Assembly (NCBI GenBank): GCA_004000515.1
Contig: CP034537.1
Span: forward strand, 2,232,001-2,296,000
Source: Pseudomonas poae
GTDB lineage: Bacteria > Pseudomonadota > Gammaproteobacteria > Pseudomonadales > Pseudomonadaceae
Reading direction: 5' to 3'
Length of the DNA: 64,000 nt
The notes beneath the pieces are model-generated. The model made no database searches, was not told the DNA's origin, and saw only the letters and a program-made list of their open reading frames with translations. The stretch's first letter is position 1; each line of letters starts with the position of its first letter. Positions 26,917-54,882 of the stretch are shown here, in pieces. The translations under genes were made by a program, and so were the position numbers.

Positions 26917-27297
26917 ATGAATTCGTTGCCGATCGATGATGTTTTACCCGCCCTGCGTGACGCCTTGGCGACTCGCCATGAAGCCGTGCTGGAAGCGCCC
27001 CCGGTGCCGGTAAAACCACCCGTGTACCCTTGGCGTTGTTGAACGAGCCATGGCTGGCAGGGCAGACCATCCTGATGCTCGAACCCCGCCGCCTGGCCGC
27101 CCGCGCCGCGGCGGAGCGACTGGCCAGCGAATTGGGCGAGAAGGTCGGCGAAACCGTGGGCTATCGCATTCGCCTCGACAGCAAAGTCGGCCCCAACACC
27201 CGTATCGAAGTGGTCACCGAAGGCATCCTCACCCGTCGCCTGCAAGACGACCCGGCGCTGGACGGCGTGGGCCTGCTGATCTTTGACGAGTTCCACG
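26917..27297 (+). pseudogene. hrpB: Native hrpB, 5' fragment cut by island
   Basis: First 127 codons of the DEAH-type helicase-like HrpB. From ATG at 26917 the product reads MNSLPIDDVLPALRDALATR; a C-run of five at 26998-27002 (six expected) shifts the frame inside the Walker A region, then [20 protein letters not shown] onward continues. At codons FDEFH (DExH motif) the similarity stops after base 27,297 and unrelated sequence follows. The expected rest of the gene is not in the window. Truncation by insertion is genuine; the small frameshift is probably sequencing error. Confidence 0.85.
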
Positions 27298-27424
27298 TTT
27301 TGCTGAATGCACAGAAATCATCACTTTCTTGTCAAAAACTCTCAAGCAACGCCATCTCAGTCTGACCGCTTAATCTCCACGTTTGATCCCCGTCGTATAC
27401 TGCTTCCCTGCTTTGGGAGCCTCG

Positions 27425-29948
27425 ATGATTTCTCTACCTATTGACCTCGTATTGCCAGACCTACGAGAGGCCCTGGCCAACCGCCACGAAGTAATCCTTG
27501 AAGCACCACCTGGTGCGGGTAAGACCACCCGAGTGCCCTTGGCGCTGCTCAACGAACCTTGGCTTGCTGACCAGAAGATCATCATGCTCGAGCCCCGTCG
27601 ATTGGCTGCTAGGGCTGCTGCTGAGCGCTTGGCAAGTGAACTGGGTGAGAAGGTTGGTGAGACTGTCGGCTACCGCATTCGCCTTGAAAGCAAAGTAGGC
27701 CCGCGAACCCAGATCGAAGTGGTCACCGAAGGCATCCTGGCGCGCCGTCTCCAGGATGACCCCGCGTTGGACGGTGTGGGTGTGGTCATCTTCGATGAGT
27801 ACCACCTTCGAAACCTTGACTCTGACCTTGCGCTGGCCTTGTGCGTGAGTGCTCGTGAGCTGCTGCGGGATGAGCCCCCACTGAAGTTACTTCTGATGTC
27901 CGCAACGCTGGAAGGCGCTCGGCTTTCAAAGCTTCTGAATGACGCGCCAGTTATCACGAGTGAGGGGCGGATGTATCCGGTCTCTACGGTTTGGAGTAGC
28001 CCATATCAGCCGGGGGAGCGAATCGATTCGAGGGTCACGGATACCTGCTTGGCCGCCATCAACGAACAGCCGGGAAGCGTTCTGGTTTTCCTCCCAGGGC
28101 AGGCAGAGATTCGGCGGGTGGCTGAGGTGCTCAAGGAGCAGTTGAGCAGTCGTCCAGAGGTGATCGTATGCCCGCTGTACGGTGACCTTGACCTGAACGC
28201 ACAGCGTGCTGCGATAGGCCCGGCACCAAAAGGCTCCCGGAAGATCGTACTGGCCACGAACATCGCGGAGACCAGCTTGACCATCGAAGGTGTCAGAGTG
28301 GTGGTGGACAGTGGTCTCGAGCGAGTGCCGAAATTCGATCCTCGCAGTGGAATGACCCGGCTCGACACACAGCGTATTTCGAAAGCCAGTGCTACTCAGC
28401 GTGCAGGACGGGCAGGGCGATTGGAACCAGGTATCTGCTATCGCCTTTGGTCTGAGTCGCAGCACGAACAAATGGCTGGCTACAGTACACCTGAAATTTT
28501 GCAGGCTGATCTTGCAGCCCTGGCTCTCCAGTTGGCCCGGTGGGGAATGGAGCCGGAGGAGATGACCTGGCTCGACCAACCTCCATCAGCTCCCCTTCGG
28601 CCAAGGTAGAGACCTGCTGAAGCGCCTGGGCGCACTCGACGATACTGGACAGCTCACACCACACGGATCAGCCATGAGCGAGCTCCCAGCGCATCCACGG
28701 ATCGCTCACATGCTCATCAAAGGCAACGCAATGGGCCTGGATGACCTCGCGTGCAACATCGCGGCGCTGCTCGGTGAGAAGGACATCCTACGTGGAGCCG
28801 GTGCTGACCTTCACACTAGGCTGAGTGCCCTGTCAGGCGAGCAACATTCACGTCGTAGTGGTGGTTCTCTCCAGCGGGTGAAGCAGTCGGCTCGGCAGTA
28901 CCGATCCCTACTGCGTGGGAAGGCCTCCAGCCCTGTCAGCGAGCCCGATCACCCACGGTGGGTAGGGTGCCTCCTGGCGTTTGCCTACCCTGACCGAATC
29001 GGCCAGCAGAGGCGTGCAAGTGCATCCGAATACCGTATCTCCAACGGTCGTGCTGCGGTGTTCTCAGAGCCCGATGCCCTCACCAAGCACGAGTGGCTGG
29101 TGGTGGCAGATCTGGGTAGTCGGCAAGGGCAGCGCGAAGAGCGGATCTACCTGGCGAGTGACCTCGATCCGGCTCTGTTCGATGACGAGTTGGCTGACCT
29201 AGTGAGGTCGGTGGATGAGGTCGACTGGGACGAAAGGGAAGGGGTGCTGAAGGCTGAGCGGCAGTTGAAGGTTGGGCAACTCATCTTGTCGACGAAGGCG
29301 CTGCCGAGTCTTGATGAGCAAACCCGGTCGCAGGCCCTGGTCAACCTGGTGAGGCGCAAGGGCATTGAGCTCCTGCCGTGGAGCCCTGAGCTACGGCAGT
29401 GGCAGGCGCGGGTCGATCTGCTGCGTCAGCTGGACATCCAGAATGGTCAGGCAGAGAGCAAATGGCCTGATCTCAGCGATGCCAATCTTCTCGACACACT
29501 CGAAGAGTGGCTCGCGCCGTATTTGGGCAAAGTCACCAGGCTCAGTCATTTCAGCCAGCTGGATCTGTCTTCGATAGTCAGAAATCTCCTGTCTTGGCCG
29601 CTTCCACAGGAGCTGGAAGTTCAAGCGCCTAAGGCGATCCAGGTGCCTTCCGGCTCGAATATCCGTATCGACTACTCGCAGCATCCACCTATCCTCGCGG
29701 TACGGCTGCAGGAGTTGTTTGGGCTGGCAGAAACACCACGCATCGCTCAGGGCAAGCAGCCGTTGATTCTGCATCTACTATCGCCGGCTCGTAGGCCTGT
29801 GCAGGTCACCCAGGATCTTGCGAACTTTTGGCGCAGCACCTACTTGGAGGTGAAGAAGGATCTTAAGGGCCGGTACCCCAAGCACCATTGGCCTGATGAT
29901 CCACTGGTAGCGGAAGCTACTGCACGGGCGAAGCCGAGAGGGACTTGA
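27425..29948 (+). CDS. hrpB: Second, divergent HrpB (ATP-dependent helicase), frameshifted as assembled
   Basis: Complete island-borne HrpB of 840 residues once an extra C at 28592-28595 (four, three expected) is removed. Start ATG at 27425 (MISLPIDLVLPDLREALANR). Motifs: Walker [19 protein letters not shown], DExH box DEYH, SATLEG, ATNIAETSLTIEGVRVVVDS and QRAGRAGRLEPG; the C-terminal HrpB domain starts after the frameshift and ends at 29948. Its upstream region also resembles that of native hrpB (GTATAC, CTGCTTTGG). The box reads DEYHLRNLDSD where the native type has DEFH followed by ERSLD. It probably replaces the function of the interrupted gene. Confidence 0.88.
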
Positions 29949-30030
29949 GTCGACTTTTCGCGCTAGGTGGCTACTGGACTTGAGAGGATAGATTCGTCTT
30001 GGCGACAGATTTTTAGGAGTGGTACGTGTG

Positions 30031-30744
30031 ATGAAAAAGGCGCTGGAGAAATACGCCAAAAAGCTTCAGAAGGACGCGGAAGTCGCCTTTATCAGACGAG
30101 TGATGTGGACTGATATGGAAGTGCGCATCCGTGAGATGTTCAAAGATATCGAAAATTCGCCCCAAGCTGATTGGTACGGAGGGATGAAAGTCCACAGCGG
30201 TCTACACCCTGAAGCCAATGAGATCCCTGTGAACAATAGATTGAATCATCTCCAAGTCACTTGCATGACTAGGCTGCTTGGGCTTTCGAGCGTGAAGGAA
30301 GTTGATGAAGTCAAGGATTGTGAGGGAGTTGAGCAGAAGGTCAGAGTGACCAAGCGCACTACCCACCTAGAAAGCGATTCCGCAATGTGGTTCACGCAGA
30401 CTCCTACCGGAGGGGTCACGGTCTTTATGGCTCCCTACAGGTCTGATCTCGTTTCCATGAATGAGAGGGAAATCATCATTGGGATGTTCAAAGATCCCGT
30501 TCAACTGACAGAAGGCAGGCTCAGACGGCTGTTTGCGAGATATTTCAAATACGTGTCCATCACCAGTGCGCTTCACGACCACACGGTATTTGACTACGCC
30601 TGGAGGCTGCTGCTCATGTATTTCGACGTCCGCAATCGCCGGGTCTGGAAGACCTTTGTAGCAATCAACGTGCTGGTCATCTTCGGCGCCGCGCTATTCA
30701 CGATTTTGGGGTATTTCATCAACTCATCAGCCCCATCACCGTGA
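30031..30744 (+). CDS. Unknown protein with C-terminal membrane anchor
   Basis: A 237-residue protein I do not recognise. ATG at 30031 is preferred over the upstream GTG at 30019 by spacing from TAGGAG. The N-terminal part is charged and helical (ALEKYAKKLQKDAEVAFIRR); the centre has PTGGVTVFMAPYRSD and EREIIIGMFKDP; a single hydrophobic helix (FVAINVLVIFGAALFTILGY) lies near the C-terminus with a 10-residue tail. It follows hrpB closely but no operon link is evident. Confidence 0.6.
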   Translation: MKKALEKYAKKLQKDAEVAFIRRVMWTDMEVRIREMFKDIENSPQADWYGGMKVHSGLHPEANEIPVNNRLNHLQVTCMTRLLGLSSVKEVDEVKDCEGVEQKVRVTKRTTHLESDSAMWFTQTPTGGVTVFMAPYRSDLVSMNEREIIIGMFKDPVQLTEGRLRRLFARYFKYVSITSALHDHTVFDYAWRLLLMYFDVRNRRVWKTFVAINVLVIFGAALFTILGYFINSSAPSP

Positions 30745-30836
30745 TTACCAACTCACAGGCATCTGCGAACAATAGCCCGCCTACTTTAAAGCTGACCGGG
30801 TCAGAGCCCGTTGATTAATCCCCTTGACCAATGTTG

Positions 30837-31553
30837 TTAGACCTTGGACTGTGCTTGGTGGCATTCCAGCAAAAACAGGCCAAGTGCGCCGGCCACGTTG
30901 ACGCACAGAGCTGCTTCAGCACTTGTGAGATCGGAGGAGGCGTCGCTTGGGCCATGGGCATCGCCATGCTTGTTCCTAACCTGCGCGATGCTCAGCAACA
31001 ACTTGTCGATGTCTTTGAGTAAGCCGGACATGGAAGTCCCTTGGTCGGTCAGCCCGACTTGCTTCAGCGTCGCCAAAAGCAGCGTTCTACGATCTGAAGT
31101 CGAGATACCACCTTGCTCCAGAATCCATTTTTGAGTGGACTCCAGAAAGCTCCTCGCGGCTGTGATCGCTCCGCTAGGATCTGACTGGCGTCGACTCAGA
31201 GCCTTATCCCATTGTGAGCGCAAATGTGGATCAGGAAGCTGCCCGAATGCACCATTCAAAGCTCGGTCAGTCGGTGTTGGCTGACCTTGGGCTTTTTCCA
31301 GCAGTTGCCTGCCCCGATGAGTGAGGTTGCCTGTGACAATAACTGTGCGGTACTCCAGTTTGCCTCCGTTGGATTCCTTTATGGGCATAACTCCATCAAC
31401 ATGACCTTGTCTGTGAGCTTCAACCAGAGCGCAAGCTAGGGGCTGGAAGTCTTGGAAAGCCTGCTTTGAGGTATCTGCCGGATCAAATGCTGTATCTCCG
31501 GCTTCGATGCGTCTTAAGACTTCGACTAGCTTCCAGTCCATTTCCCTACCCAT
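30837..31553 (-). CDS. Abortive-infection (Abi_C) family protein
   Basis: About 238 residues. ATG at 31553 is 8 bp after GGAGGT, so it is preferred to an ATG 48 bp upstream. The N-terminal half contains a winged-helix-like segment ending YRTVIVTGNLTHRGRQLLEK. The C-terminal half matches the Abi_C pattern: SQWDKALSRRQSDPSGAITA, ARSFLESTQKWILEQ, LLKDIDKLLLSIAQVRNKHG, DAHG. Families with this domain include phage-exclusion proteins, but their chemistry is unknown. It lies downstream of an XRE regulator gene on the same strand and may form a two-gene unit with it. Confidence 0.7.
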   Translation of the reverse strand: MGREMDWKLVEVLRRIEAGDTAFDPADTSKQAFQDFQPLACALVEAHRQGHVDGVMPIKESNGGKLEYRTVIVTGNLTHRGRQLLEKAQGQPTPTDRALNGAFGQLPDPHLRSQWDKALSRRQSDPSGAITAARSFLESTQKWILEQGGISTSDRRTLLLATLKQVGLTDQGTSMSGLLKDIDKLLLSIAQVRNKHGDAHGPSDASSDLTSAEAALCVNVAGALGLFLLECHQAQSKV

Positions 31554-31715
31554 CTGAGCACACCTCCGCCATTTAGTTGTGATGATCATACTGGAGCTCA
31601 TGGGCCTTGAGTCCAGGCTTCTGGATGAGTCGCAAATTGGTCATGCGCGGGTTGCTAGAAAAGAGCGGTCACCCCTCGAGAAGCGTGACCAGTCAATCTG
31701 CTTTCTGGGATCGCC

Positions 31716-32408
31716 TCATGGCAGCGCCATCTTCCTGGGCAGGGCCAACTCCTCTGGCGCGTCACCTTCTCTGAATCCGATCAGGTAGAGCACATCTCCT
31801 ATAGGGAGTGCTTCTATCTGCTGATCCGATGTGCCTTTGCGTATCACTGGACAGGTCGCATAGCGCAAGGTGACGCGCTGTTCTTTGAGACGGTCAAGCA
31901 GGGTCTGCAGTTCTTCAAACACCTCCAATAGTGCTGTGCTTGAGTAGAACTCGGCACATTCGCGATAGTCCCGTAGATAATCGGTCAGTTCCGCGAGTGC
32001 CACTGCCTGATCCCTGGAGGGCTCGAATGCGGGCTCGATGTAATCGCCTATGCTCTCAGCCGCAAGCCTGGCCAGGTTCCTTCCAGATTTGATCTTCAAT
32101 GCCTTCGTAAGCACATATTTTTTGGCGAAATGCTCACGAGCGTCGCGTAGTTGCTCCTCAGTAGGGATCGCCATCGGTTTGGTGAGTGCGTCGATGTCCT
32201 GAAATTCGAAAGCGGTGGAAAGAGAGCGAAGTGTGTTGAGGCTAGTTCCCGCCCCTGCTTCAACACGCTGTATTGTCCTAGGCGTCGTACGGGCGAGTTC
32301 CGCCAAGGTCTCTTGTGACCACTGGCGCACTTCGCGCAGGTATCTGATTACTTCGCCCAGTTCACCTTTGCTCAATACACGGGTTTCAACGGTGTCAAAA
32401 CTGCTCAT
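31716..32408 (-). CDS. XRE-family transcriptional regulator
   Basis: A 230-residue regulator with an N-terminal HTH (LGEVIRYLREVRQWSQETLA, TTPRTIQRVEAGAGTSLNTL) and a helical C-terminal region of about 150 residues that I cannot assign. The Abi_C gene follows at about 160 bp on the same strand, so it may control that gene. The 250-bp divergent gap 32,409-32,659 probably holds promoters for both sides; I see no clear operator. Confidence 0.75.
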   Translation of the reverse strand: MSSFDTVETRVLSKGELGEVIRYLREVRQWSQETLAELARTTPRTIQRVEAGAGTSLNTLRSLSTAFEFQDIDALTKPMAIPTEEQLRDAREHFAKKYVLTKALKIKSGRNLARLAAESIGDYIEPAFEPSRDQAVALAELTDYLRDYRECAEFYSSTALLEVFEELQTLLDRLKEQRVTLRYATCPVIRKGTSDQQIEALPIGDVLYLIGFREGDAPEELALPRKMALP

Positions 32409-32711
32409 CTTTTGTCTCCTGCCATAGGGCTTTACAGATGACTACAGTATGGAATCAGGGAGGTCTGGACGACACGACACCTACCCGACATGCGGCTTGT
32501 TGTCAGCGCTTTTGCACTGATTAGCGCCGTCGAGCGGCATAACAGCTCAAGCTATGGCGCTTACGATCATAACCATGGTTTCGACTCCAAGATTGGCACG
32601 TTGAGACCGGTATTTAAAAGTGGCATCATCTGGCTATCAATATGGAGAGGGAATTCCACATGACGCCATTCGGACTTGCCGAGGGCCGCGCTTTTATCAG
32701 GGGGCGCGTTG

Positions 32712-33356
32712 ATGACTGAGGCGACGCTTGAGTGCCGCCATACGGGACAGCAGGTGCCCTACCAGATCCATCAGGGCCTGGCACCCATGTACGTTTTCCA
32801 GCTGAGCGAGCAGTGGGACACTGAGAAGCGCCAGATTCTGAGGCAACTGATGGCTGATGTCCCTACAGCCGCTGACGACCCCAACGTGCTTTTCGACCAA
32901 TTGCCGGCGTATGGTCTGACGGATTTCCATTGGAGCTGGCTCGATAAGGCGTTCGCCTTCCGTAGCGATGACTACCACTGGTTCTTCCTGAGTGCCCAAG
33001 GGCGGATTCAGGCGACCTGCGTCATCTACCACCCCAAGGAAAGCCGCCTGGATGGGGAGCGCATTTTCTACATCGACTACGTCGCGTCCGCCTACTGGAA
33101 CCGGGATCGACCGAACTACGTGAAGCAGTTCGGCAACGTTAGCCGGATCCTGATCGCCCATGCCTCCCACTTCGCCATCAACCAGCTGGGCTACCGTCCA
33201 GGCTTCTGTTTGCACTCGCTACCGACTGCGGAAGGCTACTACCGCTACCTCGGCATGATTGAGTACGACGCTGATGCAGATAAAGAGAACTTGCGCTACT
33301 TCGAGGCGCCTCCTGAGATAGCTGGGAAGCTGGCAGGGGAGGCGCATCATGTCTGA
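32712..33356 (+). CDS. GNAT-like acyltransferase (first gene of a four-gene group)
   Basis: About 214 residues, start ATG at 32712 (MTEATLECRHTGQQVPYQIH). The pattern fits a GNAT fold: a strand-rich centre (YHWFFLSAQGRIQATCVIYH, IFYIDYVASAYWN), a probable acyl-CoA helix (GNVSRILIAHASHFAINQLG) and GFCLHSLPTAEGYYRYLGMI near the end. A short frame from ATG at 32660, with better GGAGAGG spacing, stops exactly at this start; if the G-run at 32699-32703 has one extra base the two would fuse and give a longer N-terminus. It overlaps the next gene by 8 bp. Confidence 0.6.
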   Translation: MTEATLECRHTGQQVPYQIHQGLAPMYVFQLSEQWDTEKRQILRQLMADVPTAADDPNVLFDQLPAYGLTDFHWSWLDKAFAFRSDDYHWFFLSAQGRIQATCVIYHPKESRLDGERIFYIDYVASAYWNRDRPNYVKQFGNVSRILIAHASHFAINQLGYRPGFCLHSLPTAEGYYRYLGMIEYDADADKENLRYFEAPPEIAGKLAGEAHHV

Positions 33357-34215
33357 CTCTCCAGAAGGGCTTCCAGGCGACTTCGAGGTTTATCCGTCCT
33401 CGCGGGATGCTGCAGTTGAGTTCTCGGCGGCGCTGTCCAGCTTGAAGAAAGCGCTGAAGCCAGCGGATGCGAAGACGCATGCGCGGCCCGGTGAAGCCTA
33501 TGACGACTTCATCATTCGGCTCGCCCTCAACGCGACCAATAACAAGGGCGTGCTCTATCGCAAGAATGACTCTGCGGAAGAGACCAAGATCCAGGCGTGG
33601 TTGTCGCTGATTAACGAGAAGTCCAAGTTCGCTGTGCTGAGCCGGAGAGTTCTCGATTTTCAGGGTTTGAGCGCTCAACATCTCCGGCAGATCGCGCTCC
33701 TGAGTCTCAAGTCTGAAAACATTACCACCCTAGTCGATGTCTTGGCCGAGTCCTATGGCGTGCTCCTCGTGGTAGAGCCGGGCTTCAAGTCGATGAAAAT
33801 GGATGGATGTACCTTCAAGTTGTCGCAGGGTACGCCAGTTGTTGGAATAGCGCTTCGCTACAACCGCTACGATAATTTCTGGTTCACACTCATGCATGAA
33901 CTTGCCCATATCCATAGGCATTACGATTATCTCGATAATCCGATCCTGGACGACCTTGAAGAAGACAACGACTCTGATCGTGAGGTCGAGGCAAATATCA
34001 TTGCCAAAGATAGCTTGGTATCCCGCCAATATTGGCGCATGGCCTGGAATGTTAGGGCAGATAAACAGCAGCTGCTGGATGTTTGCGTTAAGGCTGAAGT
34101 GCATCCTTCCATCATGGCGGGGATGATTCGTCACCAGGCCAAGAACTACAAGCTTTACCCTGAATTGCATCACTCTATGGACGTTAAAAGCGCTTTCGGG
34201 TTTGCCAATGATTAA
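33349..34215 (+). CDS. ImmA/IrrE-type zinc metallopeptidase
   Basis: A 288-residue protein with the zinc motif HELAH at residues 183-187 in FWFTLMHELAHIHRHYD, the hallmark of ImmA/IrrE peptidases that cleave phage-type repressors. The N-terminal 110 residues (IIRLALNATNNKGVLYRKND) are of unknown fold; no clear HTH is seen. Strong overlaps with the upstream acyltransferase-like gene (8 bp) and the downstream beta-family gene (8 bp) show a single translation unit. No XRE repressor substrate is encoded in the group. Confidence 0.8.
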   Translation: MSDSPEGLPGDFEVYPSSRDAAVEFSAALSSLKKALKPADAKTHARPGEAYDDFIIRLALNATNNKGVLYRKNDSAEETKIQAWLSLINEKSKFAVLSRRVLDFQGLSAQHLRQIALLSLKSENITTLVDVLAESYGVLLVVEPGFKSMKMDGCTFKLSQGTPVVGIALRYNRYDNFWFTLMHELAHIHRHYDYLDNPILDDLEEDNDSDREVEANIIAKDSLVSRQYWRMAWNVRADKQQLLDVCVKAEVHPSIMAGMIRHQAKNYKLYPELHHSMDVKSAFGFAND

Positions 34216-35284
34216 ATACGTTCCTTTTTTAAAGCTTAAGCAGAATGAAATCCAGAGTGTAGGGGTTTTGGATGAAGGGATTCGCGATCAAATAGCTCCG
34301 ATGTATGACATTCCCCGAACGCAGAAAGTGATGGATGAAGCTGAGGTCATTGATCGTTTGAGGATTGCAGATAAAGAGCTAGGGAGTGCTCAGGAAAAGG
34401 ACATCAGTTACAAATTCTTTGTCGATAACTTCGATGTCGACGATAGTGTAGATCTGGGCGGTATCCCGCAATACAGGGCCATACTTGCAACGCTGTCGAA
34501 TTATCGGGTTATGCCAGTTTTGGCATTTGATCGGCATCCGGATCATAACGTCGCGGCGCTTGATTTCGTGAAGTCGCGGCCAGGGACAGATGTCGGTATC
34601 CGTCTGCAGATGATCGACATTGAAAGTTATAACCTCACAAAGAGTAATCTTCAGGCACTTTGGGCAGACTTGGCTGTGGCCAAGCCGCAAACAGTAATCC
34701 TTCTGATTGATCTACGCATCATCGGAGATCCAGCAGACTCCAAGAGAAAAGTGGAAAGGTTTGTGGCTAGCTTTCAAGGTGACTTTGCTGGTGCCAAAGT
34801 GGTTGTCTCTGGGTCGGTAGTGCCTGCGTCTATCGCAGGGCTCCTCCCGACAAACTCCACGGCTCATATTCCTCGGGAGGAGTACAAGCTGTGGCGGGCC
34901 CTGAGTTCAACCCCAGACTTCAAGGAGGTGTTGTTTGGAGATTACGGCGTTGTCAGCCCGGAGTATTCTGACTTTGAGATGGAGCCCGAGTATATTAGTA
35001 GCCGGGCGGCGCCTAAGGTTTTTTACACTTACAGCGATAGCTTTTTCATTGCACGTGGGCGACGGTTCAAAACTCACAAGTTTAGACAGTATTTCGATAT
35101 TTCTGACGTAATTGTGAATGAGCTGTTCTTTAGGCTACGTACACCGCATTACTCATATGGAGAGCAGTACATTCATGAGCGGAGCTATAAGGCTCCGGCA
35201 AGGTCGAAGAAGACAGGCAACCCAGGAACGTGGATTAAAAGCCCAACTGCCGCTCACATCACTTTCGTAGTTAACAACATTTGA
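34208..35284 (+). CDS. Beta-family protein (sce7725-like)
   Basis: A 358-residue protein starting at ATG 34208 (MIKYVPFLKLKQNEIQSVGV), typical of the 'beta protein' family, with a TIM-barrel-like run of strands (VMPVLAFDRHPDH, DVGIRLQMIDIESYN, TVILLIDLRIIG, AKVVVSGSVVPASIAGLLP). Members are often next to sce7726-type genes, as here. The activity is unproven. Its 3' end overlaps the opposite-strand sce7726-like gene by 132 bp. Confidence 0.7.
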   Translation: MIKYVPFLKLKQNEIQSVGVLDEGIRDQIAPMYDIPRTQKVMDEAEVIDRLRIADKELGSAQEKDISYKFFVDNFDVDDSVDLGGIPQYRAILATLSNYRVMPVLAFDRHPDHNVAALDFVKSRPGTDVGIRLQMIDIESYNLTKSNLQALWADLAVAKPQTVILLIDLRIIGDPADSKRKVERFVASFQGDFAGAKVVVSGSVVPASIAGLLPTNSTAHIPREEYKLWRALSSTPDFKEVLFGDYGVVSPEYSDFEMEPEYISSRAAPKVFYTYSDSFFIARGRRFKTHKFRQYFDISDVIVNELFFRLRTPHYSYGEQYIHERSYKAPARSKKTGNPGTWIKSPTAAHITFVVNNI

Positions 35285-35830
35285 GCGCCTTTCGATGAGG
35301 GCGCCTTGGATTCCTGCTAGGGCGTCGTCCCGGCTCAACTGATAGCTGATTTGCTCAGCGATAGCGTCACGGTTGAAGGATTTTTTGAAGACCACTTCAG
35401 GGTGTGCGGTCGCAATGGCCGTCAGCTCTGCCTTCCAAAGCATTAGAAGGGCATCTCTCTTGGAGAACATTGGGTTGGTGCCGGCCTTGCGGACGTAACG
35501 CAACATTGTCCTTTCTTTGCTAGGTGTGGCGAGAATGATGCCCCAATAGGCAGGGATCTTTTCCATTGCCCAGCGCACATGGTTTTCTGTTGTTACCAAA
35601 GTCAGTTTGGGGAACGACCTTGAATAGAACTCTGACTGCGACAGAATCCGGCGAACATTATCGGTCTCGCCTTTGATTTCATAGCAGTGCATCTCCCGAT
35701 AGCAGGCAACTACGTCGGCAATGGCATTACCATTATCGATGGTGAGCTCTTCGAGCACGCGAGCAGGTTTAGGCGACCGCTTCATCAAGTGGTCAACTAA
35801 AGCGGTTCGGATTTCTTTATCTCTGAGCAC
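35153..35830 (-). CDS. sce7726-family PD-(D/E)XK nuclease-like protein
   Basis: A 225-residue protein from GTG at 35830, preceded by GGAG. The nuclease core is visible: Asp39 in NAIADVVACYR, Glu51-x-Lys53 in CYEIKGETDNV, then RILSQSEFYSRSFPKLTLVT, the arrangement of restriction-endonuclease folds. The C-terminal 45 residues, which lie in the overlap with the beta-family gene, look unlike a domain and may be an antisense extension. Convergent to the beta gene, so expressed separately from the acyltransferase-ImmA-beta operon. Confidence 0.75.
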   Translation of the reverse strand: MLRDKEIRTALVDHLMKRSPKPARVLEELTIDNGNAIADVVACYREMHCYEIKGETDNVRRILSQSEFYSRSFPKLTLVTTENHVRWAMEKIPAYWGIILATPSKERTMLRYVRKAGTNPMFSKRDALLMLWKAELTAIATAHPEVVFKKSFNRDAIAEQISYQLSRDDALAGIQGALIERRSNVVNYESDVSGSWAFNPRSWVACLLRPCRSLIAPLMNVLLSI

Positions 35831-36022
35831 TCAGAGCTCCAGGCGGGCACAAACGCAAGATCTTAGCCTATGAGGCCACCTGTTGGGGAGTCCGCTCGCC
35901 TCTTCCTGAACGCGTCCCGACCGATAGCGCTTTGGTGGTATGGAAGGTTGATTCGGGCTTGGAGGGTTGGGGGTGATAGCCTAGTGGAGTCTCGTCGCTA
36001 CCATCCACACTTGGAGCCCCGC

Positions 36023-36565
36023 ATGATCACCCTCGACCGCTTTGTTGCTTGGCTGTTTCCCGACCGCCGTCCCGACTGCGAGCAGAAGCGTGAGCGCGAA
36101 TTCATACAGGCAGCGAACGGCTTAAAGACCCTCAGGGTGACACCAGAGGGGGGAATGTTTATCGACCCTGAAGAGCTCCGTGAGCAAATTGTCGCAGCAC
36201 GTGAGCAGTTGAAGCACCTTGTCCACGCCCCAGGGACGCGTAGTGGGCCGTACCAAGCCGTTGCGGTAGTCGAGGTGGCTCAGGAGGCTGATCCGTCTGT
36301 TGAGGGGCCGCATGACTGTATTGAGGTGGTGGCCTGGCGTCGGCTTCTGAATGGCGGTGCCGTGCGCTACGTATGCCTTCAGTCCACGCATACCGGGAGG
36401 TACTCTGTCGCGACGGCTAGTCTCTTCTCTGGAACCTCGGAAAGTCTACCGACCTGCGTCGACGGCAATACCCACAGGCAAGTCGCTAACGCCCTTCAGG
36501 GTGGTGAACGCCACTGGTACGCGACTGTGAATAAGGCCATGGATACTTGGGATGCAGAGCTCTGA
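36023..36565 (+). CDS. Hypothetical protein
   Basis: About 180 residues from ATG 36023 (MITLDRFVAWLFPDRRPDCE). No signal, no membrane helix. Residues 50-65 are a charged helix (DPEELREQIVAAREQLKHL) and the C-terminal half is strand-rich (CIEVVAWRRLLNGGAVRYVC). Not recognised. It stands alone between two minus-strand genes. Confidence 0.55.
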   Translation: MITLDRFVAWLFPDRRPDCEQKREREFIQAANGLKTLRVTPEGGMFIDPEELREQIVAAREQLKHLVHAPGTRSGPYQAVAVVEVAQEADPSVEGPHDCIEVVAWRRLLNGGAVRYVCLQSTHTGRYSVATASLFSGTSESLPTCVDGNTHRQVANALQGGERHWYATVNKAMDTWDAEL

Positions 36566-36690
36566 AGGTAGTGCAGGTTTTACTGGCGCCAAATGATGCT
36601 CATCGCTCCTGGTCTACAAATTTACAGCCCGGCGCAGATAAGTTACAGGGGCTCATTTGAGGCCGAAATTGCACACGCCTGCTTTAGCCT

Positions 36691-37305
36691 TTAATCACGA
36701 GGCTCAATTGGCTGGCTTGCTCTGCGCGCCAACGATTTACTTCTCATCTGTAAATATTCGCTTTCCTTTTGCGTCCTTTCTCTTTTACTTCGCTTTTTAA
36801 TATCATTATAAAGACTATCTCGATGCTTATTGAATTGCATCCGCTCCCGCAGCATTTCCGACGTCGATGAAGAAGGCCAGGCCAAAAGTTCTCCTTCATT
36901 AAATAATAGCCCATTGCTTATCACATCCAGCGGCCACAGATTTTCGACATAATGATCAATCGTACGACACACGTGTGCATGCCTAAAGGCCTTGTATCCG
37001 AGGCAGTTGGCTACAAGATCATAAGCAAAGCTAAGTTTCATCGGGCTACCATCAGCCCTAACTAACTTAAGGAGCTTTTTGGCTCGGTATTTGATTTGTG
37101 CAATACTCATTCCTTTAGCAGTACCAAGACAAACCAGTACATCAGCTACTCTATCCTCTCTCAGAACGTAATCATCCGTAGGTGCCCAGCTTGAAATATT
37201 ATTTGCATTCAAGAACGCTTGGAGATGATCTCCCAGATGTACAATTGCAGCTTTTGCAGTAAGGGGCTTTTCGGCTTGCTGCGCAGGGTACACTGTGTAG
37301 TTCAT
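36691..37305 (-). CDS. Hypothetical low-GC protein
   Basis: About 204 residues from ATG 37305 (MNYTVYPAQQAEKPLTAKAA). The DNA is clearly more AT-rich than its surroundings, a sign of separate acquisition. The product is basic and helical, with FAYDLVANCLGYKAFRHAHV in the middle, resembling the small helical 'kinked' domains of some plasmid proteins, and a Lys/Arg-rich C-terminus (DIKKRSKRERTQKESEYLQM). No family recognised. Confidence 0.55.
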   Translation of the reverse strand: MNYTVYPAQQAEKPLTAKAAIVHLGDHLQAFLNANNISSWAPTDDYVLREDRVADVLVCLGTAKGMSIAQIKYRAKKLLKLVRADGSPMKLSFAYDLVANCLGYKAFRHAHVCRTIDHYVENLWPLDVISNGLLFNEGELLAWPSSSTSEMLRERMQFNKHRDSLYNDIKKRSKRERTQKESEYLQMRSKSLARRASQPIEPRD

Positions 37306-37568
37306 TCTCACAAAAGCTCGTCGGTCGATTATTCTCAATCATGCTAATCAAAAATCTCCGACTTGCAAGCCCCAAAAAGAACGAGCTGTCAATACATGGT
37401 TAATGTTTTATTGATATATTGACGCTGCTCTTTCAGGTGCGGGGTATTCTTCTATCGCAATCGTTGGCTAAGGCACAGGATTCTTCGGGATGTTACCGTC
37501 TTGCCCAAGGTGACGTCCCTCGCAAGCTGATTGTTATTGCAAACAGAGTTAGCCACCTATTCGATGGC

Positions 37569-38033
37569 TTAAGTTTGAAAGAAAGCGTGGCAGGCGTTCA
37601 TCAAAGCGATTGCGTCGTCGAGAGCGCGATGGTGCGTGGTGGTTGGTAGTAGGCAGTAGATCTTACTGGCAGCTTCCCGTCCCACAAACACCTCCAGAGG
37701 CTTCAACTCGAAGGTGGGCATCAGGTCTGCTGCTTCGTAGAGTACATCGAGCCAGAAACCGTCCTGAGGCGAGTCGCTACATAGCACTTGTCCTGAGAAC
37801 AACTGATTCATATGCCTCGCCACAACGTCGGCGGGATCACCTTGCTGATGCAACTGATCCTGACAGATGCCGTGCATGTCTTGGGCATCAAACGACCAGT
37901 GCGTCCAGTAGCGGGCTGGCTTGATCAGCGAGCTGTAGGAGGCCTCACTCGATACGACAGCGACTTCGATAGGATAGCTATCAGGAGCTATCCCTGAGGC
38001 CTCGAAATCGATAAAGAATGAGGGCTGTTCCAT
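37569..38033 (-). CDS. DnaQ-like (DEDDh) 3'-5' exonuclease
   Basis: A 154-residue single-domain exonuclease. DEDDh residues: Asp9/Glu11 in FFIDFEASG, an internal Asp region (SDSPQDGFWLDVLYEA), and His-x4-Asp in HHRALDDAIAL. The size and lack of extra domains resemble small accessory exonucleases rather than the polymerase epsilon subunit. ATG at 38033 follows AGGAG. A second exonuclease of similar layout lies at 54,416. Confidence 0.8.
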   Translation of the reverse strand: MEQPSFFIDFEASGIAPDSYPIEVAVVSSEASYSSLIKPARYWTHWSFDAQDMHGICQDQLHQQGDPADVVARHMNQLFSGQVLCSDSPQDGFWLDVLYEAADLMPTFELKPLEVFVGREAASKIYCLLPTTTHHRALDDAIALMNACHAFFQT

Positions 38034-38084
38034 CCTGCTGCTCCTGTTAGAAGATTGCGATTCCGCTACGCCGAACCAGTCGCT

Positions 38085-38486
38085 TTAGCCGCTGGCTGCC
38101 TGCGCTACTCGGTGATTGTGCAGGTGCTGCATCTCACGCTCCCACTCAACCAGAAATTTCTGCCAGTCGTGCGCATATGGGCCTTCGGGGAGTCGCGTTG
38201 ATCCAACGCTGGCCTGCAGAAAGCGCTCTCTCCAGGGCTGCGGGATTTCTTGCTCCAAGACTATATCGATGCCGGAGTGATGGCGTTTCACCAGGGCAGA
38301 ATGACGAACCTTGTTGAGCTCGAGTGGCTCATGGATGAAGGCTGTGCTGCTTCGCTCCTGGTTGTCGAGATCGTCAAGGATGGCTAAGACACCAAGTGCC
38401 ATTGAATCACCAGGATGGAGGCTGGCATGTGCCCAGAGAGCCCTTCGTCTTGCTCTCTCAAGCTCGCTGAGCTCCTTACTGGCCAT
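38085..38486 (-). CDS. Hypothetical protein
   Basis: A 133-residue soluble helical protein (MASKELSELERARRRALWAH) with no recognised domain. It lies 51 bp upstream of the exonuclease gene on the same strand, so the two may be cotranscribed. The structured element at 38,531-38,630 lies just upstream of its start, in the opposite orientation. Confidence 0.55.
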   Translation of the reverse strand: MASKELSELERARRRALWAHASLHPGDSMALGVLAILDDLDNQERSSTAFIHEPLELNKVRHSALVKRHHSGIDIVLEQEIPQPWRERFLQASVGSTRLPEGPYAHDWQKFLVEWEREMQHLHNHRVAQAASG

Positions 38487-38530
38487 TGCAGGCTCCTCTG
38501 AGGTGTTTCAAAGCTGAGTAGCGACAATGG

Positions 38531-38630
38531 CGTGCCGCCTAACGGCGGATGGCTGGCGTGAACCGAGCCACAGCAAGCCGTGTCTCGGCCCTCCGGGCGC
38601 TCATCCTGCACGCCTGCGCGCTCCGCTTGC
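38531..38630 (+). repeat. Structured non-coding element, copy A
   Basis: A GC-rich non-coding stretch: hairpin CCGCC-taa-CGGCGG, then GGCTGGCGTGAACC, hairpin GCCC-tcc-GGGC, CATCCT and CGCGCTCCGCTTGC. The same order of blocks recurs at 63,444-63,560 on the minus strand with compensating stem changes. It may be a structured RNA or a DNA site of the island; I cannot assign it. Confidence 0.55.
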
Positions 38631-38740
38631 TAGATGCTCGCATGGTATGGAGGCCTCACGCTGCGAATCTGGGATTCCTGCTGCGCTTTCTAGCGAGTGG
38701 GGCACGATGTTGCACGTACCCCAGCGTACCGCCAAGTTGG

Positions 38741-39292
38741 CTACTTATGAAATTTACTGAAGCGACTCGAAAGTGTCGCAGGCTCGATGCTTTCCCAACC
38801 CTCTGGATTCGCCGTTGCACTGAGCATCACCTGAGCGCGCCAAAGAAAAAACAGCGCAGCCAAGCTGCCTTCAACTGTCGCGAGGACGGTAGCGTTAGAG
38901 AACACGTCTGGATCAGGCCCAAACAGAAGTCCCAGAGCAAATAAAGTCGGAACCCAACCAACTACGAACATCAGGCAAAACGCGATGACTGCAAATCCTG
39001 CAAGAGCGACAGGTACTTTGAACCGCTGACTGGTATCAAATATTTTCTCACCGCGCTGGGTCAGGCCGTAAAGCACTCCATGATTTTTTCTCTTTTTCTT
39101 ACTCCGGTTGAAAATTCCATAGAGGGTCGCAGGTTCACCTGCTTCTAGCTCTTCGTAGAGCTTGTTGGAGACCTGGAGATTCGGAATCACCGCGCCATCA
39201 ATGCTGACCAGGATTTTGTGACCACCATTTATGAGGTTTACCGACCTTACATAGTCGACCTTTCCGGCGAATTTCACACAATCAAACTTCAT
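38741..39292 (-). CDS. Hypothetical membrane protein
   Basis: A 183-residue protein with a soluble N-terminal half (VDYVRSVNLINGGHKILVSI, small strand-rich domain) and two membrane helices (VALAGFAVIAFCLMFVVGWV, then TVEGSLAALFFLWRAQVMLS). Function unknown. It is divergent from the HTH regulator gene at 39,573. Confidence 0.6.
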   Translation of the reverse strand: MKFDCVKFAGKVDYVRSVNLINGGHKILVSIDGAVIPNLQVSNKLYEELEAGEPATLYGIFNRSKKKRKNHGVLYGLTQRGEKIFDTSQRFKVPVALAGFAVIAFCLMFVVGWVPTLFALGLLFGPDPDVFSNATVLATVEGSLAALFFLWRAQVMLSATANPEGWESIEPATLSSRFSKFHK

Positions 39293-39517
39293 TACTAACT
39301 ATCCCTGCCATCGCGAAAAAAAGATCCCGTTGATGCCAAGAAGCCGCTTGATAACGACTGCGGGCTGGCTTACGCGGTTCATGAACATCGGCTCAATGGC
39401 GCATCTTATGAGCGTGGTGGTCGCCAAGACTCCTCTGCTATGCCAGTCCTCACATCACGCCACCGTGAATAAACGGCTGCCTGGCAAACGACATGTCACG
39501 ATAATATCATTATGATC

Positions 39518-39561
39518 TGTTTATCGGAATACGCCAGCCGTGGCTCTATCCTCAGTTTTGG
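39518..39561 (+). promoter_or_regulatory. Shared upstream element of the HTH paralogues, copy 1
   Basis: TGTTTATCGGAA, 11 variable bases, then a 21-bp block (39541-39561) that starts TGGCT and ends TTTTGG. The same two blocks with the same 11-bp spacing lie upstream of the paralogous regulator at 47,319. Only 11 bp separate it from the start codon, so it is probably the promoter/operator. Confidence 0.7.
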
Positions 39562-39572
39562 GGGTATGGTTC

Positions 39573-40040
39573 GTGCAACTGAAAGAGGCCCTAGCGGCGG
39601 CGTTGCGTGGAGCGCGTGCTCATCAAGGCTTGAGCTACGACGAACTAGCAGGGGCAACCCACAGGACTTACGTTGGAATGCTTGAGCAAGCACGAGCAAA
39701 TCCGACGCTGGAGAAGCTCGACGAAATCGCTGAATACCTCGGTCTCGATCTACTGACGATGGTTGCCTTGGCCATTGCAGCCCAGGGCGATGAGCTTCCG
39801 TCGGAGGTTTTGCAGCGTACCGCCCTAAAAGTCAGGGAATTCGAAGAGACCGGAGGGTGGGCGTTGGTAGAGGAACAATTCAGCGAGGGTAAGCTTGTCA
39901 AGCGCTCTCAAGGAAAGCCTAGGCGGCCCTTGAATGCGGAAAGCGTCAAAGCCCTGAAGGCGCAAGGCCTGGACAGGAAAACAATCGCGGAAAAGCTTGG
40001 GCTTGCTAGGAGCACAGTCCAAAAATATTGGAACTCATGA
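39573..40040 (+). CDS. Double-HTH regulator, paralogue 1
   Basis: A 155-residue regulator with an N-terminal XRE-like domain (LSYDELAGATHRTYVGMLEQ) and a second C-terminal HTH of resolvase type (LDRKTIAEKLGLARSTVQKY). GTG at 39573 is chosen because its product (QLKEALAAALRGAR) then aligns with the paralogue's MHLKIALAGTLRALR at 47,319. Shared middle segment: FEETGGWALVEEQFSEGKLV against FEANGGMELLAEQFADGALI. It likely regulates itself through the common upstream element. Confidence 0.75.
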   Translation: MQLKEALAAALRGARAHQGLSYDELAGATHRTYVGMLEQARANPTLEKLDEIAEYLGLDLLTMVALAIAAQGDELPSEVLQRTALKVREFEETGGWALVEEQFSEGKLVKRSQGKPRRPLNAESVKALKAQGLDRKTIAEKLGLARSTVQKYWNS

Positions 40041-40188
40041 AACCAGCCTGGCAGGGTTCAGCAACGATAACGTCACTCAGGCGCCGAAGTTTTTCTTCTG
40101 AGCTCCTGTGGCTTGGTTTGGTTGCTCCTGCTCTGGGCAGCTGACAGTATGATTGAGCCAGTGCACTCTGGGTCAGAAGGAAGGTTGC

Positions 40189-40779
40189 ATGGACGACGCA
40201 GGACGGTTTGCTTTTTACGAGAAAATCTATTTTTACGAGCTTGAGCGCAAAGAAAAACTCATCTCCAGACTCAATCTCCCCCTTGCGATACTAGGCGTAC
40301 TACTCTCATTTCTCTCCTACATGCTGGGCAAAGCACCAAGCTCAGAGGACGGTTTTGCTGGCGTCGCATTTTGGATTTTGTACCTGTGCGCCGTTCTGTG
40401 CCTGCTTTGTGGCGCATACTACTTTCGTTCTTCATGGCAACTGCGTGACTTCGACAGGGGGATGCCCACGTTGGCCGAGCTGGAGAGGTACAGAGCAGAG
40501 GCAACGGCTCATTTCGCAGTTCATGGAGAAAATGACGATGACGCAGAAACCTACTTCAAGGCGATCATTCTGAGCTACTACATTGAGGGGGCAACCGTTA
40601 ACACGGTGAACAACGATAAACGCGGTGCGAAACTCGTTTCGTTATCGAATTACGTAACCCTCACCATGATTCTCTCGGTGTTGTCATTCGTTCCGTTCTA
40701 CACCCACCAGCAGGAGCTTACCAAGCATGAGCAATCAAAAGCCGCCGCCGCCTCCCCCCCCGCCAATGCGCTTCGTTAA
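40189..40779 (+). CDS. Three-helix membrane protein, SLATT-like architecture
   Basis: A 196-residue protein starting at ATG 40189 after AGAAGGAAGG. An N-terminal amphipathic helix (FYEKIYFYELERKEKLISRL) leads into two membrane helices (LPLAILGVLLSFLSYML and GVAFWILYLCAVLCLLCGAYYF). A charged cytosolic part of about 80 residues follows, then a third helix (LTMILSVLSFVPFY). The layout recalls pore-type effectors that accompany sensor proteins, but I cannot assign a family. Its 3' end overlaps the proline-rich gene by 53 bp. Confidence 0.65.
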   Translation: MDDAGRFAFYEKIYFYELERKEKLISRLNLPLAILGVLLSFLSYMLGKAPSSEDGFAGVAFWILYLCAVLCLLCGAYYFRSSWQLRDFDRGMPTLAELERYRAEATAHFAVHGENDDDAETYFKAIILSYYIEGATVNTVNNDKRGAKLVSLSNYVTLTMILSVLSFVPFYTHQQELTKHEQSKAAAASPPANALR

Positions 40780-40918
40780 AGATCACGGAAAAGACCTTCC
40801 GAAATCTCCGCCACCGCCTCCGCCGCCCAAAAATGATCCACAGGACGCAGACATGATCTGCCTGTCGTCCTCAATCATTGGAGAGAAAACGGAAGCCCGA
40901 TCCCATGCGAGTTACTGA
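40727..40918 (+). CDS. Proline-rich microprotein overlapping the membrane protein gene
   Basis: A 63-residue frame beginning ATG at 40727, 10 bp after GGAG, in the +1 frame relative to the upstream gene. It has two runs of eight and seven prolines (KPPPPPPPPMRF, KSPPPPPPPKND) around a short basic segment. Polyproline runs stall ribosomes without EF-P. Alternatively it is the true C-terminus of the upstream protein joined by a frameshift at the C-run (eight C near 40,756). Confidence 0.45.
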   Translation: MSNQKPPPPPPPPMRFVKDHGKDLPKSPPPPPPPKNDPQDADMICLSSSIIGEKTEARSHASY

Positions 40919-40921
40919 TCA

Positions 40922-41179
40922 ATGAAGCTCGTTGGGCTGATCCGTCACGGCAAGAGCGCTGCGAATCCCGGCGTAGCCAGCTTGGATCACGCGACCATTC
41001 CTCTTACGCTAAAGGGGGTTGAACAGGCGCACTTGGTGGCTCGTTCTTCCACCAGCGTTCCTGCTCTGATCGTCGCCTCTCCGTTTTCTCGGGCTCAATT
41101 GACAGCTATGGCTGCCGAGTTCGGCCCTGGCTTAAAGTGCCGTAAACCAGCAGATACAACACCACTGCCTTGGCCGTAG
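40922..41179 (+). pseudogene. Truncated histidine phosphatase
   Basis: The N-terminal 70 residues of a phosphoglycerate-mutase-like enzyme: GLIRHGKSAANPG with the catalytic RHG, LTLKGVEQAHLVA, and LIVASPFSRAQLTA. The sequence then loses similarity (GLKCRKPADTTPLPWP, stop), so about half of the domain, including the second catalytic His, is missing. I take it as a decayed remnant. Confidence 0.65.
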
Positions 41180-41337
41180 CCGAGGCAGATTAATCGTCAA
41201 AATGTAGCTTGCCTGCGACCGTAATGGCTTCCCGCTGACCGTCATGCTGTCTCCAGGTGCAAGCTGGCGAACAGCTTTAAAGCCATATTTGCACGAGCTG
41301 CAATGCTTGCAAGCTGACTATTTTGACGAAGTCTAGC

Positions 41338-41851
41338 TTAAGAAGGTTTCCAGCGATCTACCTCGCAGCTCGGCCCTGTAGCGGTGGGTATGGAGATCAA
41401 CTCAATCAACGAGCCCCATGGCGCTCGGACGTAGTGCATAGAGTTGCCTGTCCCTTTTTCGATACCAAAAAGTGCGTTTGGCCCGCGAAGCTGAGTACCT
41501 CCAGCAGCCAAGACACGATTGAGCACTGAGCCCAGTTCATCACAATAGACGGCGAAGTGCTGGAGCCCCTAAAGAGCCTATTCCGTCAACGCCCTGCGCC
41601 GCGCCTTCGATCTCGAACAGCTCGATGTTGGCACCGTTCCCAAGACGAATCATGCGGGTTGCCACAATTAATTGCTCTTCTTTCAGGGCAACCGTAGCGG
41701 CAAGCTCTTCAGGGGATCGGCGCGGATGGCTATCGACCACCGTGTCGTAGACGATAGCTGCATCGAAGGCCTCGTGAAAGAACCGGGTTGCTGCCTCGAT
41801 ATCTGGAACCGTGATTCCTATATGATCTATGCCACGTATATTGTTAGACAT
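41338..41851 (-). CDS. VOC-family (glyoxalase-like) protein, frameshifted as assembled
   Basis: A 170-residue vicinal-oxygen-chelate protein: RGIDHIGITVPDIEAATRFF (first metal ligand His) in the first frame, then LQHFAVYCDELGSVLNRVL and MHYVRAPWGSLIELISIP (last ligand Glu) in the second. A C-run of four at 41566-41569 (three expected) separates the frames. It lies 13 bp after the hydrolase gene on the same strand. Substrate unknown. Confidence 0.8.
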
Positions 41852-41864
41852 TACGCATTCCGCC

Positions 41865-42857
41865 CTATGGTCGATCCAAGAAGGAGTTGATCAAAGGGTT
41901 CAACGCAGGAGCGCACTCCTCTGGAACCCAATGGCCACAATCTGGCAACACGTGGGATTCAACATTAGTGGCGTAGCGACGGATGTTCTCAGGCTGCTTA
42001 GCACCGAACCCGCCGTTACCCCCACCGCCAACCGCGAGGACAGGCATTGTCAACTTAGTAGCCACCAGCTCCTCGTTCTGCTTAATCGATTGGGGAAGCG
42101 CACGATAATATTCAAATGCGTGGTGGAAGGTCTGGGGCTTAGAGTATGACCGCACGTAACGGTCTACCAATTCGTCAGTGAACACCGCTTGGTTGCTGGC
42201 ATGATGACGAATGAAATGCGTCAGAAACAATCGCTCGTTTCCTTTGACCATTGCGTCGGCCAACTGACCCGAGGCTGCGAAGAAGCTGTGGTGCCATCCA
42301 GGTGCCTCTCCGGTCGCGACAAAGGCTGGCAGCGAATAAAGAGTGTCGTCAGGAATGGTCGCTTCGATGAACGCAGCCTTCACGATGTCCCCAGGATGGC
42401 GGGCAACCATTGGATAGCTGTTCCAGATACCAATATCGTGGGCAACAAGGTAGAAGGGCTTGTCCGCACTCATCCGCTTGGCAAGCTTGTGCAGATATTC
42501 CGAAACATCCACTCCAGTGTAAGTAGTTTTCGGCGGCGCTGACAGGCCAAGACCTGGCAGGTCGACTGCTACGACCGTATAGCGTTCTGCGAGTTGCGGC
42601 ATGAGGCTATTCCACTCATACCATGTCTGGCCGAAGCCGTGGACAAGCAGCACAAGGGGGCCTTTACCGCCACGTACGAAATGCAGCTTCACACCGTCAA
42701 CAGTCTCGTAGGCGCTGGTAAAACCTTCAGGTATCGGAAACTCTGTATGTTGGGCGCTGACAGCTGAAGGCGGCACAGGATTGGTCTGTGCTGCGTTGGC
42801 CTGAGTTACACCCATAGCGAGCGCAGCAACGGCTAGTGCAATTGCGTGGAGCTTCAT
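41865..42857 (-). CDS. Exported alpha/beta hydrolase, epoxide-hydrolase type
   Basis: About 330 residues with a Sec signal (MKLHAIALAVAALAMGVTQA, cut at ANA-AQ). Oxyanion segment LVHGFGQTWYEW; the nucleophile elbow reads VAHDIG, an Asp as in epoxide hydrolases and dehalogenases rather than Ser; the catalytic His is in LPDCGHWVPEE. ATG at 42857 is 7-8 bp after AAGG and is preferred to GTG 42866. Between the MFS gene and the VOC gene, it suggests periplasmic breakdown of a xenobiotic or signal. Confidence 0.85.
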   Translation of the reverse strand: MKLHAIALAVAALAMGVTQANAAQTNPVPPSAVSAQHTEFPIPEGFTSAYETVDGVKLHFVRGGKGPLVLLVHGFGQTWYEWNSLMPQLAERYTVVAVDLPGLGLSAPPKTTYTGVDVSEYLHKLAKRMSADKPFYLVAHDIGIWNSYPMVARHPGDIVKAAFIEATIPDDTLYSLPAFVATGEAPGWHHSFFAASGQLADAMVKGNERLFLTHFIRHHASNQAVFTDELVDRYVRSYSKPQTFHHAFEYYRALPQSIKQNEELVATKLTMPVLAVGGGGNGGFGAKQPENIRRYATNVESHVLPDCGHWVPEECAPALNPLINSFLDRP

Positions 42858-42893
42858 GTTTTTCACCTTGTGGGACGATAAATGATTGGACGA

Positions 42894-44108: not shown

Positions 44109-44223
44109 AATTTTCCTCGCGATTGGCGTACTGGCTGCCGTGCAGAGCGCAACCTGACAGCATGGATATTTACGTTAACAACCACTATAGTATTCATAAA
44201 TCCCAAAGTAAACGGATTATGTA

Positions 44224-44836
44224 ATGTCCATTAACGTAAATAAGCGATCCCGTGGGCGACCGCGCCAATTTGTCCTAGCAGACGCCATCCAGGTCGGGCA
44301 GCATCTGTTCCACGAGTACGGGTATGAGAACGTCAGCGTCGCAGCGCTGACCGAAGCGATAGGGATTACTGCGCCGAGTTTCTATACGGCCTTTGGCAGC
44401 AAGGGTGCGTTTTTCAACGATGCGTTGAAGCACTACTCCGCGACTGTCGTGCCACTTGACACTTTCTTGATCCCAGACAAACCGCCGCAGACTGTACTGA
44501 GGGGAGATGCTTAGGGCTGCGGCGCATGCATACGCCGCTCATCCGAACCGCCGAGGTTGTTTTATTCTGGAGCATGCGAAGGCCGGAACCACTGAGTCGG
44601 GAATAGCTGCTAAGCAAATCGCAGACGAGAATCGTGCAAAAGTGATGGCGTTTCTCGAAGCATCTGGCATCTCCGCTGCTAGCCACGTCGTAGACTATGT
44701 CTCCGTGACTATGCTTGGCCTGTCGGCTGCGGCGAAGGAGGGTTGGGAGGAAGATAGGCTGATTGCAGTTGTGAAGACCGCCGTAGTAGGCCTCAACCAA
44801 CTAATAGCCAGGGCAAAGGATATAAAGTGTCGCTAG
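44224..44836 (+). CDS. TetR-family regulator, frameshifted as assembled
   Basis: A 203-residue regulator: RGRPRQFVLADAIQVGQHLF and the HTH NVSVAALTEAIGITAPSFYT in the first frame, then LRAAAHAYAAHPNRRGCFIL and the ligand domain in the second. A G-run of four at 44501-44504 (three expected) separates the frames. Divergent from the MFS-hydrolase-VOC group; the 115-bp gap should hold its operator, which I could not define. Confidence 0.85.
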
Positions 44837-45150
44837 CAGGGATTCACTACCCAGATACCGATGCGTTTTTTGGTGACACGGGCATCACTGACGCGACCGA
44901 GCAGCTCAGGAAGCGCGGCTGGCTCGTCGAGGACAATAAGGTCTTCATGGCTGGCTACTACAGATCCGCAGCAGACATGGTCGTGAAGTGGGCGTTGAGC
45001 GATTCACTACACTGCAATGTAGAAGTCGCGGAATGGTTCCCTTCCCCTGAGGCGCGAAGTCGGCTGCTCGAGCTACTGAATATTGGCAAGCCCAAGCTTT
45101 GGGAGCTGAGCAGGCTGCAAAAAGTGGAAGCTTGGCTAAGCTCGCAATAG
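44827..45150 (+). CDS. Hypothetical small protein
   Basis: A 107-residue frame from GTG 44827, overlapping the TetR stop by 10 bp. It reads MSLAGIHYPDTDAFFGDTGI, then VVKWALSDSLHCNVEVAEWF and a helical end KLWELSRLQKVEAWLSSQ. Not recognised; the weak start lowers confidence. Confidence 0.45.
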   Translation: MSLAGIHYPDTDAFFGDTGITDATEQLRKRGWLVEDNKVFMAGYYRSAADMVVKWALSDSLHCNVEVAEWFPSPEARSRLLELLNIGKPKLWELSRLQKVEAWLSSQ

Positions 45151-45198
45151 GTGATGACGTCAGGTTGGTCAGGAAGACAGCCGTGTAATACGTGCTGA

Positions 45199-45747: not shown

Positions 45748-45758
45748 GCAAGTAACTG

Positions 45759-47319: not shown

Positions 47320-47326
47320 GGCTTGA

Positions 47327-54865: not shown

Positions 54866-54882
54866 GCTTTTGAAACTCCGTA

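Follow-up and report, generated by a model that had tools for sequence, protein, structure and literature searches.

A Genomic Island That Splits hrpB in Pseudomonas poae Carries a Complete hrpB Recoded at the Insertion Site

Integrating elements usually pick tRNA genes or gene ends, where they regenerate the short end that is lost on insertion. A different arrangement was found in a 64,000-nucleotide stretch of the Pseudomonas poae genome (CP034537.1, positions 2,232,001 to 2,296,000; hereafter the window), in which an island splits hrpB, a housekeeping gene for an RNA helicase, at its DExH codons and brings a complete second hrpB. Seventeen other genomes of a genus sample show the same structure with the junction at the identical base, and the second copy is recoded exactly at the codons where the native gene is broken. 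It is probable, in our judgement, that these islands form a site-specific family that inserts at one hrpB position and makes good the damage with a complete, recoded copy safe from re-insertion. Such an element would strike the catalytic heart of a gene and yet spare the host by supplying the whole gene with a rewritten attachment site, which suggests a rule, open to testing, by which the most conserved protein sites can be used by elements.

Structure of the Split hrpB Locus

Sequence comparison placed the native hrpB 5′ part at 26917..27297 on the forward strand, where its homology breaks off after TTCCACG within the DEFH codons and forms the host side of attL. The island left end (TTTTGC...GCAC...TTGTCAAAA), which looks by eye like an inverted repeat of the right end, follows together with the upstream region of the second hrpB (27298..27424, forward strand). 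This second gene begins with an ATG at 27425, 127 bp inside the left end, and ends at 29948 on the same strand; it is complete and lies in two frames joined at one frameshift near 28,590. Compared with the HrpB family TIGR01970, the first frame scored 636 bits, above the family cut-off of 546, and the second frame alone scored 526 bits. The first-pass annotation of the window had claimed a full-length hrpB behind a split native one, which is borne out by these matches and by the native stop after TTCCACG. The resemblance that it had seen between the upstream regions of the two genes is present but modest, being a stretch of ~33 bp whose score was reached by one of 300 shuffles. Frame changes also occur in both native hrpB parts (5′ and 3′) and in recombinase gene A of this assembly, and their number suggests that they are probably homopolymer sequencing or assembly errors rather than decay.

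The island occupies 27298..64000 in the window and runs on to about position 2,305,266 of the contig (G000:C1; L006 10266), giving a size of about 46.0 kb. Beyond the window, its right end holds a recombinase module, A-B-C-D (L006 3814-10214, reverse strand), after which lies the native hrpB 3′ part (L006 10267-12390, corresponding to G000:C1 about 2,305,267-2,307,390), just where the annotation had expected the missing portion. Because the two parts are separated by 46 kb that includes recombinase genes and defence cargo, the structure is an island insertion rather than a simple tandem duplication. The module consists of four genes in the order A763, B694, the small C200 and D475 (degenerate recombinase, recombinase, small protein and XerD-like protein), that is, three proteins with a tyrosine-recombinase fold or motifs and a 200-amino acid protein. 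The R-K-HxxR-H-Y columns, assigned by reading, are invariant or nearly so in the alignments of D and B, which identifies both as tyrosine recombinases. The predicted structure of A has the same fold without the HxxR histidine, and almost every structure match listed for this model (pTM, predicted template modelling score, 0.54) was a tyrosine recombinase, a repressor related to these enzymes or a type IB topoisomerase. No significant match emerged when the profiles of A, B and D were compared with one another, and sequence searches for relatives with solved structures found none for A and B.

Recurrence of the hrpB Islands

A genus sample of 298 genomes, including that of the window, and a family sample of 398 genomes were examined. 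A relative of A was present in 31 of the 298 genomes (32 matches, with the locus obtained for 30), and the hrpB 3′ part directly adjoined A in 18 of these 30 loci, the window's genome included. Beside the split native gene, each of the 18 genomes has a further hrpB that is complete, so the duplication that the annotation had proposed to look for elsewhere was found in 17 others. In these 18 the extra gene is oriented like the broken one. In eight genomes it lies no more than about 250 bp from the left junction, and in the others it is 2-10 kb inside, deeper, or beside the recombinases. The full set of A, B, C and D could be located in 15 of these genomes; G198 retains just part of A, and the DNA read for G085 and G143 stops within the module. 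The pieces are on separate contigs in G143, G085 and G235. Named carriers include P. marginalis, P. cichorii, P. fluorescens, P. helleri, P. viridiflava, P. putida and Stutzerimonas strains, and the recombinase module is also present in other Gamma- and Betaproteobacteria.

The left junction lies at the identical base in all 18 rows, reading GAYGAR-TWY-CAY-G and then island sequence, and its pattern was detected in 25 of the 398 family genomes. A reversed-pattern control gave 0, which, together with the 17 relatives, argues that the position is not due to chance. At the right junction, about six variable nucleotides precede the host arm. Together with the CCAYG kept at the left, this is the 6-nt footprint reported for strand-biased circularizing integrative elements (SEs), with part or all of the core staying at the left junction. 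One genome (G063; L114, L252; named locus L304) holds an island with a recoded hrpB outside hrpB, while its native hrpB is intact elsewhere. The right-hand six nucleotides of this island are CCACGG, near the hrpB core, which fits the core carry-over described for SEs in the accessible part of that report (PMC10214605).

Recoding at the Crossover

The crossover falls within the FHER codons of DEFHERS. In the window, the corresponding site of the island copy (27794..27814, forward strand) reads GAT GAG TAC CAC CTT CGA AAC, encoding DEYHLRN in place of the native DEFHERS. Twenty-one extra copies were read, comprising 18 from these islands, one from G063 and two that accompany a second type of element described below. 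The glutamate of DE[FY]HER was kept in none of them, being replaced by L in 18, S in two and I in one, and the serine after the following arginine was N or T in 20 of the 21; the D, E and H of the DExH motif were retained. The DE[FY]HER motif was kept in 12/12 intact natives and in all 13 outgroup proteins with a readable frame (14 were tried). Among 837 aligned columns, 172 were conserved in natives and outgroup, and the glutamate column alone dropped to zero in the extra copies, with two other conserved columns falling to 50% or less. In a DNA comparison of 20 copies, which excluded that of the window, the glutamate codon never had the native base at its first or second position, and the G of the serine codon was lost in 19. 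Genes hit by insertion are unrecoded, in 18/18 cases of the genus set and at 24/24 named loci (the two sets overlap by strain), and all 14 complete copies visible in 26 named loci are recoded. Target repair by a complete foreign copy, as the annotation had put forward, is thus supported, and recoding at the integration site is the most telling point added to it.

Constraint and Origin of the Island Copies

The reading frame is open over about 840 codons in 20 of the 21 extra copies. The ratio of nonsynonymous to synonymous substitution rates (dN/dS) was 0.05-0.13 in seven island pairs and 0.01-0.07 in four native pairs. As judged from these sequences, the island hrpB is kept intact by purifying selection, and the open frames under such selection support the earlier proposal that HrpB would be regained from the island. 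In trees with Shimodaira–Hasegawa-like approximate likelihood ratio test (SH-aLRT) support, the island copies fell in three places with starred branches, with sole copies, described below, among them. In G243 the island copy shares 93% identity with the remnant in its own host but no more than 78% with other island copies. Several independent captures, or convergent recoding, are nevertheless not claimed, in view of the approximately unbiased (AU) tests given below.

Sole Recoded Genes in the Family

When the family sample was searched for the recoded motif itself, it was detected in 32 of the 398 genomes and never with the reversed pattern. The motif and the left junction co-occurred in 22 genomes (p about 2e-25). 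Ten recoded genomes had no junction match: G628, where a full copy accompanies a split hrpB; G559; and eight whose sole detected hrpB is the recoded one (G142, G528, G623, G026, G675, G639, G544 and G467; L239-L246). These eight genes sit at the native locus with native upstream neighbours. Three of them (G528, G623 and G026) are mosaics that are native over roughly the first 120-360 bp and island-like beyond, the pattern that recombination of the 5′ remnant with the island copy would produce, and three others (G675, G544 and G467) are native-looking in almost every window along the gene. In G528, about 3.5 kb of other DNA lies between the recoded hrpB and the gene which, in the window's genome, comes immediately after native hrpB. 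For annotators, a duplicated hrpB or a DE[FY]HLRN variant marks such islands, present or past.

Related Islands and Cargo

Relatives of the module were also found at other targets, whose names are a reading of the sequences, not a family call. In G286, G049, G048 and G101 (L121-L124) they split comM near its LFLDEL codons, and a second comM was found in 0/4 of these genomes. Antiporter-type islands had a close second copy of their target in 0/2 cases, with only paralogues of 34-38% identity present. In G005 and G151 (L350, L351, L352, L118) module relatives adjoin a 5′-truncated yggL; a second complete yggL, 91-92% identical, is present in both genomes. The comM and antiporter counts led us to reject the idea that whole replacement is general in this module family. 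A second element type, with three large tandem genes, was found at the hrpB 3′ end (codons KGRYPK) in G217, G255 and G559 (L110, L109, L247), and a further recoded full hrpB follows it in 3/3. In G255, the only one tested, its first gene hits Phage_integrase above the cut-off and its third below.

The cargo of the window's island includes an Abi_C / AbiJ-like protein (30837..31601, reverse strand), the B and C components of PD-Lambda-2 (33349..35284, forward strand), and Gabija GajA and GajB (50345..53615, forward strand). The GajA and GajB profile matches lack the N-terminal part, which lies outside the listed frames, and assembly indels are a possible cause.

A Possible Mechanism and Its Alternatives

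The insertion would remove host HrpB, and the island copy would replace it at once. With its attachment site recoded and the catalytic residues of the DExH motif kept, the copy would be no target for the island's recombinase or for a related one. If the native 5′ part and the island copy then underwent homologous recombination, the host could be left with the recoded gene only and permanently immune. We lean, by a small measure, toward regarding the island as a natural disrupt-and-rescue element, whose rescue gene would withstand the same recombinase, tandem insertion and competing hrpB elements and would in time replace the native allele in the lineage. Immunity may then be readable from one codon.

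Several observations weigh against this proposal. HrpB loss, rescue and immunity are all inferred from sequence, and the island hrpB of the window's own genome carries the one-base frameshift noted above. By excess of DNA divergence the site is only the 15th of 831 windows, the gene being highly divergent over its full length. A single origin for the island copies could not be rejected by AU tests (p 0.24 and 0.78; one test omitted the window's copy and the other used 8 of 21 copies). The six nucleotides of the right junction vary widely and are mostly unlike hrpB, which is unexpected for simple movement from hrpB to hrpB. Moreover, three of the 25 junction genomes lack a recoded copy. In G572 (L335-L338) a 5′ remnant and an island left end are present, and a complete hrpB was not found in the genome. 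In G577 (L340, L341) and G493 (L339) the remnant and left end are followed by a full unrecoded hrpB, which in G577 precedes the native downstream genes, and an hrpB 3′ remnant was not found in either. The A-D genes were not found in the stretches fetched for these three genomes. HrpB thus appears dispensable in G572 and, from the three together, is not strictly required. An hrpB deletion mutant of Xanthomonas citri is viable but shows less biofilm and adhesion, according to the accessible part of that report (PMC4804567).

The repair could be real and the changed site a mere by-product, either the scar of a past excision or drift under weaker constraint, and not a result of selection for immunity. 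The high divergence along the whole gene fits this, as do elements of the GInt kind, which leave altered attachment sites after excision (PMC5385486, accessible part). A swap of the 6-nt core would, however, leave the right arm unaltered, whereas the serine codon AGY and the arginine wobble position are changed too, which disfavours a scar as the full cause; one column out of 172 is lost in all extra copies and the frame is kept in 20 of 21, so that we consider this reading unlikely. It is likewise doubtful that the recoded allele originated as a chromosomal resistance to islands, which only later took it up. The sole genes of G544, G467 and G675, native-looking over nearly their full length and branching near the base of a large island clade, speak for such an order, but old domestication followed by amelioration would give the same picture, and the mosaics of G528, G623 and G026 with island sequence point the opposite way.

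Since the position of the extra hrpB varies from the left end to the interior and the recombinases, since defence genes accompany it in the window, and since the G063 island carries it outside hrpB, it might also be an ordinary cargo gene, such as one for a helicase with a role in defence or regulation, with an incidental link to the split gene. This seems very improbable, as the copy is present in 18/18 islands of the hrpB target against a second comM in 0/4 comM islands, has the orientation of its target and can be the only hrpB of a genome. A tandem duplication or an assembly artefact, to which the several frame errors of this assembly might point, is practically ruled out by the identical structure in many other assemblies. 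We therefore retain target repair by a recoded whole copy as the preferred explanation.

Comparison with Known Systems

Multi-recombinase islands and gene restoration by integrating elements are known kinds. The hrpB islands resemble GInts (ginABCD), as far as the accessible part of their description goes (PMC5385486), in being large, in having three recombinase-like proteins and one small protein, in inserting site-specifically in protein genes, and in variable cargo. They differ in gene order, because GInts have three recombinases followed by the small protein, whereas the order here is A763, B694, C200, D475. GInts are reported to spare their target by placement at its 3′ end or by an outward promoter, and a whole replacement gene is not described in that part of the report. 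SEs share the 6-nt core at one junction with six foreign nucleotides at the other, several recombinase genes and occurrence in Gammaproteobacteria; their order intA-tfp-intB-srap and gene sizes are, by description, unlike those of the hrpB islands, and the accessible part does not mention a rescue copy (PMC10214605). The hrpB gene has been named as a structural gene for genomic island insertion in P. aeruginosa, and the accessible part of that report differs in mentioning neither a replacement copy nor recoding (PMC8373256); hrpB is not mentioned in the accessible parts of two further papers (PMC4821235, PMC7809047).

In the open-licence literature, the scope of our search, which leaves subscription papers outside, no description of a recoded whole rescue gene on an island was found. 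Gamma-Mobile-Trio (GMT) islands combine a recombinase trio with defence cargo, as does the hrpB island. Membership in the GMT group (GmtY, GmtX, GmtZ) found no support; only GmtY was listed, and the XerD-like protein matched it with an E-value of 0.056 and 12.7 bits against the NCBIfam cut-off of 340. Synthetic cleave-and-rescue gene drives follow the same logic, in that the loss of a disrupted target is made good by a recoded copy on which the attack has no effect. Those drives are nuclease-based and act in animals, whereas here an integrating bacterial island is concerned, and its precise excision would restore the native gene. The hrpB islands may thus represent a natural parallel to recoded-rescue gene drives.
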